NCBI GenBank assembly: GCA_022711715.1
Contig: JAKLEC010000013.1
Span: 1 to 36,428 of the forward strand
Direction: 5' to 3'
Source: Acidobacteriota bacterium
GTDB taxonomy: Bacteria > Acidobacteriota > Aminicenantia > UBA2199
DNA: 36,428 nt
Shown: piece by piece, positions 19,955 through 22,323 of the stretch
Layout: each line of letters begins with the position of its first letter
Position numbering within the stretch: position 1 is the stretch's first letter
Position numbers and translations under genes: made by a program
The notes under the pieces: model-generated
What the model was told of the DNA's origin: nothing
Database searches by the model: none
What the model saw: only the letters and a program-made list of their open reading frames with translations

Positions 19955-20176
19955 GTGACGCGTAACGCGTGACGCGTGACGCGGAACAGCCCTGATTTGC
20001 CGATGTATTCTTCATGATCCATGCTCGTTTCTTTCTCCTTCACTCCAAGAAACCAGTTCCCGATGTTCTAATTTGGAAAAGCGAAAGAGACTCGCAGGAT
20101 TTCCTTTTCGATCGATTTCTTGGATAGGGTTCGTTCGTTTGCCGTTACTCGTCACGCGTTACGCGTCACGCGTCAC
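19955..20176. repeat. GTGACGC heptamer inverted pair with a 159-nt spacer
   Basis: The left arm (19955-19982) has units GTGACGC, GTAACGC, GTGACGC, GTGACGC. The right arm (20142-20176) has five NCGTYAC units followed by GATAG. It joins the 3' ends of two convergent genes: the peptidase stop is 5 nt before the left arm, and the amidotransferase stop lies inside the right arm. The spacer has no evident ORF. Confidence 0.85.
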
Positions 20177-20789
20177 GATAGTTCGCAGCCTCATGCTGAG
20201 CGATTCTCAGGAAATTAACGAGCAACCGCACTCCCAGCTCCCCCGACCGCTCCGGATGGAACTGGACGCCATACAGAGGGCGCCGGCGATGGACGATGGC
20301 CTCGACGAGGCCGGCGCCGCTCACGGCCAGCACGTGAAACTCGCGCTCCAGCGCGGCGTCGCGCACGACGATCTCCTCATGGCTCTCGTGCATGGGAAAG
20401 GCGGGGGGGAAGCCGGCAAAGAGCCCTGCCGCGGCGCCGGCGCGGACCTCCCCTGCGCCCAAATGCTTCGTGTCGTCGCGGCGCACCGTCGCGCCGAAGG
20501 CTCTCGCCAGCGCCTGGTGCCCGAAGCAGATGCCGAGCAGCGGCCGGCGCCAGCCGGCGAGGAATTCCAGCAGGGCCGTTCCCGCCTCGTTGTCGCCGAC
20601 CATCTTCTGCGATCCCGACACGATGGCGGCGGTGCCCATGTCCGGTTCAATCCGGTCGTCCCCGATTTCCATGGGCTCGATCACGATGCCGGCCGCTTCC
20701 GCGCCGGCGCGCAGCCAGTCGCGGTAACCCGCGATCTTGTCGCCCGACTGTTCCCGGTAGCAGTTGATCAAAAGCAGCTTCATGTTCAT
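20166..20789 (-). CDS. class I glutamine amidotransferase-like protein
   Basis: This 207-residue protein has the GATase1 fold. The nucleophile elbow is GICFGHQALARAFG with Cys88, and the His/Glu of the triad lie in YGVQFHPE near 175-182. The domain probably releases ammonia from glutamine, but no synthetase partner is encoded beside it, so the acceptor substrate is unknown (GuaA-like or gamma-glutamyl-hydrolase-like). The start chosen is the first of two near ATGs (MNMK). Its last codons (Tyr-Arg-Asp-Ala-stop) are read from the heptamer array at its 3' end. Upstream lie a good promoter and the three palindromes shared with the divergent AraC-type gene. Confidence 0.85.
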   Translation of the reverse strand: MNMKLLLINCYREQSGDKIAGYRDWLRAGAEAAGIVIEPMEIGDDRIEPDMGTAAIVSGSQKMVGDNEAGTALLEFLAGWRRPLLGICFGHQALARAFGATVRRDDTKHLGAGEVRAGAAAGLFAGFPPAFPMHESHEEIVVRDAALEREFHVLAVSGAGLVEAIVHRRRPLYGVQFHPERSGELGVRLLVNFLRIAQHEAANYRDA

Positions 20790-20854: not shown

Positions 20855-20871
20855 TGTCCCAGAATGGGACA
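20855..20871. promoter_or_regulatory. 17-bp palindromic operator, site 1
   Basis: A perfect palindrome TGTCCCA-GAA-TGGGACA. It shares flanks (GCGCCGCGC before, TGCG after) with site 2. The shape, TGTC...GACA with 17-bp dyad symmetry, is typical of binding sites for sigma54-dependent activators of the NtrC family. Confidence 0.75.
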
Positions 20872-20929
20872 TGCGTCAGAGCGGGAAATCCCGGCGGGAT
20901 GCTGCCCTTCCGGGCGGCCGGCGCCGCGC

Positions 20930-20946
20930 TGTCCCAAAATGGGACA
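20930..20946. promoter_or_regulatory. 17-bp palindromic operator, site 2
   Basis: A perfect palindrome TGTCCCA-AAA-TGGGACA, 75 bp from site 1, about seven helical turns, so both sites face the same side of the DNA. Confidence 0.75.
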
Positions 20947-21006
20947 TGCGCCATGTCCGCCTGAGCCCTTGATTCCGTTCGCTTTCCTGAGCCCTCCCAA
21001 CGGCAC

Positions 21007-21023
21007 TGTCCTATTATGGGACA
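21007..21023. promoter_or_regulatory. 17-bp palindromic operator, site 3
   Basis: TGTCCTA-TTA-TGGGACA, one arm position away from perfect symmetry, 77 bp from site 2. Its centre is about 120 bp upstream of the predicted sigma54 start, a usual enhancer distance. Confidence 0.7.
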
Positions 21024-21107
21024 GCCACGAGCGGACGGGCGGTTCGCCGTGGGGAGACCCATTGCCCAAAATCCTTGCTTATCGGTGATCCGCACTCACA
21101 TTGATAT

Positions 21108-21124
21108 TTGGCACCATTCATGCA
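21108..21124 (+). promoter_or_regulatory. sigma54 (-24/-12) promoter of the AraC-type gene
   Basis: TTGGCAC-N5-ATGCA matches the RpoN consensus TTGGCAC-N5-TTGCA at all positions but one, with correct GG-to-GC spacing. The expected start is near 21135, about 11 nt before the ATG. Upstream are three palindromes suited to an NtrC-family activator. Confidence 0.75.
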
Positions 21125-21145
21125 AATACCGCGGCGAGGACAAGC

Positions 21146-21496
21146 ATGGAAAAAGGAATGAAGTGCAAGGACATCACCAATAACGTGCTCGGCTATATCA
21201 TGCGCTTGCCCGACGAGGAATTCCGCGGCCTGACCATCAAGACGCTCGCCGCGCATTTCGCGGTCAGTCGCTGCCACCTTTCGCGGGTCTTTCACGCCGT
21301 CCGCGGCATGACGCTCAACACTTTCATCAAGCGCCAGCGGCTGCTGCGCGCCGAGCACATGCTGAACGACGACGGCTTCCTGACCGTCAAGGATCTCGCT
21401 TCGCGCCTGGGCTATTCCGACTACCAGTACTTCATTTCCAGCTTCAAGGAGCACTGGGGGGAGTCGCCCGGCCGCTACCGCAAGCTGATGAGGTGA
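21146..21496 (+). CDS. stand-alone AraC-type DNA-binding protein
   Basis: This 116-residue protein consists almost only of the AraC/XylS double helix-turn-helix. HTH1 reads LTIKTLAAHFAVSRCHLSRVFHAVRG, and HTH2 reads LTVKDLASRLGYSDYQYFISSFKEHWGESPGRYRK. There is no effector-binding domain, so control is probably through its amount, which fits the sigma54 promoter in front. The start follows GAGGA. The target genes cannot be read from the sequence. It is divergent from the glutamine amidotransferase gene, and the two share the palindrome region. Confidence 0.88.
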   Translation: MEKGMKCKDITNNVLGYIMRLPDEEFRGLTIKTLAAHFAVSRCHLSRVFHAVRGMTLNTFIKRQRLLRAEHMLNDDGFLTVKDLASRLGYSDYQYFISSFKEHWGESPGRYRKLMR

Positions 21497-21668: not shown

Positions 21669-21698
21669 TTGACACGGGGTGGCACGCTCCCCTACCAT
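21669..21698 (+). promoter_or_regulatory. sigma70-type promoter of the cyclophilin gene, apparently leaderless
   Basis: TTGACA and TACCAT are separated by 18 nt. Only 7 nt lie between the -10 box and the ATG at 21706, so transcription should begin at or next to the start codon. Confidence 0.6.
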
Positions 21699-21705
21699 TG
21701 GATCC

Positions 21706-22323
21706 ATGCCCAAGCGGAAAAAAACCCTGCTGACCTTCCTGTGCCTGGCGTTGGTGGCGGTGCGGCCTTTCGCAGCCCGCTCCCGCGCGTTGCCCGAGGC
21801 CGGCGGCGTGACCTGCCGCATCACGACCGATGAAGGCGAGATCCAAGTCCGCGTCTGCCCGAAGAAGGCGCCGGTCACCGCCGGCAACTTCCTGAGCTAC
21901 GTCGAAGCCGGGCTCTACGACGGCACAACCTTTTTCCGCGTCGTGACCCCGCAGAACCAGCCGAAAGACCGGGTGCGGATCGAGGTCATCCAGGGCGGCG
22001 ACGTCGACGAAAAGAAATGCTTCCCGCCCATCGTCCACGAAACCACGCAAATGACCGGCCTGAAGCACGTGGACGGGGCGATCTCCATGGCGCGCGATGC
22101 CCCGGGCACGGCCCGCAGCAGCTTCTTCATCTGCGTCAACGACCAGCCCGAGCTCGACTTCGGCGGCCGGCGCAACCCCGACGGCCAAGGCTTCGCCGTT
22201 TTCGGCCTCGTGGTCAAGGGCATGGAGGTCGTCCGCCGCATTCAGCGCCTGGAGGCGGACGGACAGACGCTCAATCGGCCCGTGAAGATCCTCTCCATCT
22301 CGCGAGTGAAAAGTGAATCGTGA
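21706..22323 (+). CDS. exported cyclophilin-type peptidyl-prolyl isomerase
   Basis: This is a 205-residue protein. A signal peptide (MPKRKKTLLTFLCLALVAVRPFAARS) precedes a cyclophilin domain: ITTDEGEIQVRVCPKKAPVTAGNFLSYVEAGLYDGTTFFRVV, then QGGD, then SMARDAPGTARSSFFICVND, then FAVFGLVVKGMEVV. It catalyses cis-trans isomerisation of prolyl bonds, here probably outside the cytoplasm. No ribosome site precedes the ATG, in line with a leaderless message. The last residues VKSES and the TGA stop are encoded by AGTGAAA heptamers. Confidence 0.92.
   Translation: MPKRKKTLLTFLCLALVAVRPFAARSRALPEAGGVTCRITTDEGEIQVRVCPKKAPVTAGNFLSYVEAGLYDGTTFFRVVTPQNQPKDRVRIEVIQGGDVDEKKCFPPIVHETTQMTGLKHVDGAISMARDAPGTARSSFFICVNDQPELDFGGRRNPDGQGFAVFGLVVKGMEVVRRIQRLEADGQTLNRPVKILSISRVKSES

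Follow-up and report, generated by a model that had tools for sequence, protein, structure and literature searches.

A three-operator layout ahead of predicted sigma54 promoters recurs before at least four gene sets in a genus of Candidatus Aminicenantota and is probably worked by one NtrC-type two-component regulator

Introduction

NtrC-type activators bind their operators as phosphorylated dimers, assemble into a hexamer, reach the sigma54 polymerase by DNA looping and open the promoter by ATP hydrolysis. The NtrC (NRI)/glnAp2-type system resembles the one described here in two respects: the activator combines a receiver, an AAA+ domain with a GAFTGA motif and a Fis-type helix-turn-helix (HTH), and 17-bp palindromes lie upstream of a -24/-12 promoter. 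NtrC operators read TGCACCA-N3-TGGTGCA, and the half-site frame TGnnCCA is common to these and to the palindrome of the genus studied here. In contrast to NtrC, the present system has the operator TGTCCCA-N3-TGGGACA, carries three sites at nearly every promoter and lies ahead of other target genes.

A second comparison is with Nla28 of Myxococcus xanthus, a two-component sigma54 activator that heads a cascade of sigma54 activators and also acts on natural-product genes (PMC7910581, PMC9765219). Its sites are tandem imperfect 8-bp repeats, CT(C/G)CG(C/G)AG, which lie mostly inside genes (PMC7910581, PMC9765219). The system proposed here would share with Nla28 the position of a two-component sigma54 activator atop a cascade of other activators and an action on natural-product genes, but its sites are 17-bp palindromes that stand between genes, three together and at a fixed distance. 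The PrsK/PrsR PEP-CTERM regulon (PMC9850573) likewise joins an NtrC-type response regulator with RpoN, and its model TIGR02915 is the third-best NCBIfam match of our candidate activator; unlike that regulon, the targets examined here include no PEP-CTERM or exopolysaccharide genes. Finally, the sigma54 regulons of Desulfovibrio (PMC4641369) were likewise inferred from jointly conserved activator, operator and sigma54 promoter, albeit in a different phylum and with different operators and targets, and a text search of that paper did not find the strict three-operator layout. In our literature searches, Aminicenantes did not come up together with RpoN or with RiPP gene clusters in any paper, and for the operator motif the searches gave chance matches only, with no paper describing a TGTCCCA-N3-TGGGACA operator. 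The unusual points of the present system are the strict triplet of operators and the change of operator between genera.

Results

The DNA under study is a stretch of 36,428 nucleotides (the window), which is contig 35 of a 2.09 Mb assembly that is 82% complete (genome G000). Its genus, which is uncultured, is represented here by 16 metagenome-assembled genomes of Candidatus Aminicenantota. The gene of interest encodes a stand-alone AraC-type DNA-binding protein of 116 aa (21146-21496, plus strand; HTH_18, Pfam PF12833, E=7.9e-21), with its ATG at 21146. Upstream lie a distal palindrome, TGTCCCA-GAA-TGGGACA (20855-20871, TGTCCCAGAATGGGACA), and a middle one, TGTCCCA-AAA-TGGGACA (20930-20946, TGTCCCAAAATGGGACA), both kept in orthologous promoters, followed by a proximal palindrome with one mismatch, TGTCCTA-TTA-TGGGACA (21007-21023, TGTCCTATTATGGGACA). 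A predicted sigma54 (RpoN) promoter of the form TTGGCAC-N5-ATGCA occupies 21108-21124 on the plus strand (TTGGCACCATTCATGCA). Set against TGGCAC-N5-TTGCA, its -24/-12 element (TGGCACCATTCATGCA, 21109-21124) has one mismatch and retains the GG at -24 and the GC at -12, and the T of its -24 TGG lies 94 bp downstream of the centre of the proximal palindrome. From this element, transcription of the AraC gene is predicted to start near 21135. The palindromes, the sigma54 element and the stand-alone AraC-type gene had all been described in an earlier note on this DNA, and we find them in the sequence where it put them.

Enhancers of the NtrC family have at least two palindromic operators about 80-250 bp upstream of the promoter, and here there are three. 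We searched both strands of the window for sets of three like palindromes at intervals of 64-86 bp with a sigma54 element after them. This array was the only one to come up, and 40 dinucleotide-preserving shuffles gave no such set; the array is not a product of chance. The palindromes are spaced by 75 and 77 bp, as the earlier note had it, and with 10.5 bp to the turn this corresponds to 7.1 and 7.3 turns. It had concluded that all three sites share one face of the DNA. This does not hold, since the outer sites, 152 bp apart, are separated by 14.5 turns; a shared face is, however, no general requirement for enhancers of this kind.

The palindrome is not scattered through the genome away from sigma54 promoters, an outcome that the earlier note had named as one that would count against its model. 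The pattern TGTCCNA-N3-TNGGACA has seven matches in G000, all within three clusters (reversed control: none), and each cluster forms a triplet, when degenerate sites are counted, followed by a sigma54-like element. The genes behind these arrays are the AraC gene of the window, a gene for a carboxypeptidase-regulatory-like (CPR) protein on contig C55 and a small zinc-ribbon gene on contig C1. Across the genus, the exact palindrome occurs in 14 of the 16 genomes in 51 copies, every one of them inside an array (control: none), and the two remaining genomes have degenerate arrays ahead of the CPR operon. There is no exact copy in 84 other genomes of the family and class, and in a survey of 396 genomes of the phylum the copies outside the genus came to five, all of them single, where the control had two. 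By these counts, the palindrome is restricted to the genus.

Scanning the genus genomes with a weight matrix gave 39 arrays, a number in which orthologous promoters are counted separately, so that these are not 39 independent events. With degenerate sites counted, 35 have three sites and four have two. A sigma54-like element lies 82-97 bp downstream of the proximal site in 38 of the 39; the search required GG at -24 and GC at -12, whose invariance is therefore by construction, and the element is poor in two arrays (L043, L045). The distance from the proximal site to -24 falls into two groups one helical turn apart, 82-86 bp (16 arrays) and 92-97 bp (22 arrays), with none at 87-91 bp. Over the 39 arrays the proximal site is phased with respect to the promoter (R=0.73), and the spacings between sites, which run from 66 to 82 bp, are unphased (R=0.03), which again speaks against a common face for all three operators. 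Orthologues of the AraC gene stand behind like arrays in six other genomes of the genus, and a comparison of eight AraC arrays from seven genomes reveals a footprint in which identity is 88% in the palindromes, 77% in the promoter, 42% in the spacers and 32% in the upstream flank.

Palindromes are typical of repressor operators and one array does lie upstream of an AraC-type gene, which raises the idea that the sites belong to a repressor or to the AraC-type protein itself and that the sigma54 element is coincidental. We regard this as highly improbable: like arrays precede three other, unrelated gene sets, in 38 of 39 cases a sigma54-like element lies within one or other of two narrow ranges of distance, and the operators, at 80-260 bp upstream of the promoter and not overlapping it, sit in the zone where sigma54 activators act. 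The comparative evidence instead gives strong support to the earlier proposal, in which an enhancer array of the NtrC family drives RpoN-dependent transcription of the AraC gene.

On its other side, the array in the window faces a divergent class-I glutamine amidotransferase gene (20166-20789, minus strand; Pfam PF00117), and the earlier note had suggested that one regulator might control both genes, with a sigma70 promoter serving the amidotransferase. In the window and in G013 (L113) the array does lie between the two genes. At most other AraC loci, however, another gene separates the array from the amidotransferase, which is found near the AraC gene in other genomes and is directly divergent across the array only in these two. 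A consensus scan found no sigma70-like promoter for the amidotransferase, and no sigma54 element points towards it within 500 bp. Joint control therefore seems unlikely, and the amidotransferase is probably a neighbour that does not belong to the regulon. Downstream of the AraC gene, the window encodes a cyclophilin-type peptidyl-prolyl isomerase (21706-22323, plus strand), just upstream of which is the sole nearby match to a sigma70-like consensus, TTGACA-N18-TACCAT (21669-21698, plus strand). At L028 and L041 a cyclophilin-type isomerase gene lies upstream of the AraC gene instead.

Four kinds of target recur behind the arrays of the genus, and the same three-operator sigma54 switch would thus be repeated ahead of at least four gene sets. 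We assigned operon contents by homology between loci, the simple gene caller being prone to pick antisense frames in GC-rich stretches. The first target is the 116-aa AraC-type regulator. The second is the CPR operon, which encodes the CPR protein, a CheY-like receiver, membrane proteins of 210 and 446 aa and an ABC-like protein of 229 aa. The third pairs the zinc-ribbon gene with a downstream gene of some 215 codons, and the fourth, in G015, G013 and G007, is a second sigma54 activator (Sigma54_activat, E=3e-57). Downstream of the latter in G015 are genes for a small double-glycine-type precursor, a radical SAM protein and a C39-peptidase ABC exporter, which together make up a RiPP cluster.

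Several details of these loci may be recorded. The 229-aa protein matches ABC ATPases by profile search with E about 1e-9 (L101:4091-4777, plus strand; also L103, L144 and L164), and in four species, which belong to two genera, a Walker A motif could not be recognised in it; it is perhaps a non-hydrolysing ABC subunit. Its predicted structure has a pLDDT of 37.5, and the relation to ABC ATPases comes from the profile search. At seven zinc-ribbon promoters (L029:5267-5294; L026, L031, L032, L035, L040 and L044) the start codon (ATG) comes 27 nt on when counted from the T of the -24 TGG, which places it roughly at +1/+2 of the transcript to be expected, and the sigma54 messages from these seven promoters are apparently leaderless. 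Two family-5 solute-binding proteins and a HAMP-PAS histidine kinase are encoded in a row (L108:8433-13665, plus strand) near the zinc-ribbon target in several genomes. The order of array-driven sigma54 activator, double-glycine-type precursor with a Cys-containing core, radical SAM protein and C39-peptidase ABC exporter can be followed at L025:872-4659 and at L109:4716-6905.

The activator is not encoded in the window, as the earlier note had correctly stated, and a strong candidate lies on another contig of the same genome. G000 encodes RpoN (RpoN DNA-binding domain, E=1.9e-49) and nine clear sigma54 activators. The candidate (G000:C122:1093-2442, minus strand) is an NtrC-type response regulator with receiver, AAA+ domain and Fis-type HTH, whose motifs include LLDLTLPDG at the phosphorylation site, GETGTGKE (Walker A), GAFTGA, LLDEI (Walker B) and GISRSSLYRK in the HTH, and it aligns over its full length with NtrC4 (structure 4l4u). 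It scores 351.7 bits against the model for NtrC proper (TIGR01818) and 346.2 bits against that for PrsR (TIGR02915), below the respective equivalog cut-offs of 558.6 and 502.6. Its partner is a histidine kinase with HisKA and HATPase_c domains and an N-terminal part with no Pfam match. In several genomes the kinase and regulator genes lie downstream of the CPR operon and convergent to it, and no operator array was found at the other sigma54-activator loci of G000. Counting its own genome and one partial copy, a C122-type regulator is present in 14 of the 16 genus genomes, with 64-77% identity in 12 others and 67% over the partial copy, and 39-49% outside the genus; it was absent from the search results in the array-bearing G004 and G009, whose assemblies are in more than 400 pieces each. 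In a phylogenetic tree, the genus regulators group with their orthologues from two genomes of other genera, G018 and G029, and apart from the other eight activators of G000 (support 98/98), and a paralogue clade sits inside this group. Taken together, linkage to a target operon, distribution and phylogeny suggest that this one two-component regulator probably works the arrays of the genus.

A different master could be sought in the second sigma54 activator, a protein of 473 aa (L025:3238-4659) that would then regulate its own gene, given that an array precedes genes of this type in G015, G013 and G007 and lies beside a relative in G018. The pattern of presence makes this less likely than the C122-type regulator. 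The N-terminal domain of the L025-type activator has no match in six array-bearing genomes (G000, G001, G004, G009, G012 and G014), four of which do have a C122-type regulator, and it is therefore better seen as a target, a role that also accounts more simply for its multiple, diverse copies. We consider its being the master quite improbable.

The proposed role of the C122-type regulator can be examined beyond the genus. In G018 the regulator orthologue is convergent to an AraC-type gene with an array of its own, comprising TGTAAAATAATTTTACA, TGTAAAATAAATTTACA and TGTAAATAAATTTTACA at 70 and 83 bp, with TGGCATGCAAATTGCT 94 bp further on. In G029, TGTAAAG sites in the same layout precede an ABC-like operon that adjoins the kinase and regulator genes. 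Both genomes thus have three TGTAAA-N5-TTTACA-type sites and a sigma54 element beside the regulator orthologues. Paired TGTAAA sites number 17 in G018, four in G029 and one each in G023 and G032, whereas the remaining 30 genomes of the family and the control have none, and the arrays are confined to two genera (g4 and g9). Most of them again consist of three sites and a sigma54 element. Among the genes behind them are an NRPS gene, genes for phosphoesterases and for a protein homologous to the 210-aa membrane protein, and a RiPP precursor gene accompanied by one for a radical SAM protein. The NRPS gene, from g4 (L195:3-1787, minus strand), encodes condensation and AMP-binding domains and has its TGTAAA array and sigma54 element about 300 bp ahead. 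In two further genera we found no array, either ahead of the corresponding operon (g6) or near the regulators (g7), and relaxed settings also gave nothing convincing. Between the genus of the window and the two genera with TGTAAA arrays, the operator sequence changed but the architecture did not. The recognition helix of the regulator reads GISR[S/T]SLYRK in the genus of the window (g1), GISRPSIYKK in g9 and GLTRPTLYKK in g4, and we infer that this difference is tied to the change of operator.

Discussion

It is very likely, in our judgement, that the window contains an RpoN promoter whose enhancer consists of three operators, each for a dimer, run by the C122 regulator and its kinase, and that this switch drives a small regulon. 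In this mechanism the soluble histidine kinase and the NtrC-type response regulator would form the controlling pair. Once phosphorylated, the regulator would bind the three 17-bp palindromes as dimers and assemble into a hexamer, which, through DNA looping and ATP hydrolysis, would open the sigma54-RNA polymerase complex at 21108-21124 and thereby lead to production of the AraC-type regulator. Also under this switch would be the CPR operon, the zinc-ribbon gene and its 215-aa partner and, in some species, the second sigma54 activator that heads the RiPP cluster. Operators, layout, sigma54 elements and their conservation are read directly from the genomes, as are the linkage of the regulator to a target operon and the altered operators beside its orthologues; from them we would predict that the C122 regulator is what binds, that it is phosphorylated, that the DNA loops and that transcription depends on sigma54, and likewise what the regulon does.

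Over the whole family, we lean modestly towards a broader reading. A two-component sigma54 master regulon may have exchanged its operator at many promoters (TGTAAAR in g4 and g9, TGTCCCA in g1) but retained the three-operator layout, the promoter distances and several targets, and may govern peptide natural products (RiPP and NRPS) through a cascade by way of a second activator.

What can now be tested in vitro from synthetic DNA is a named operator, a regulator and kinase that are candidates for its control, and a short set of targets. The strict number of three operators constrains models of hexamer loading by NtrC-type proteins. With the layout kept, the paired shift in operator and HTH offers a clean case for joint change of an activator and its many sites and, if the family-wide reading is true, would amount to a natural record of a transcription factor being rewired wholesale along with its sites.
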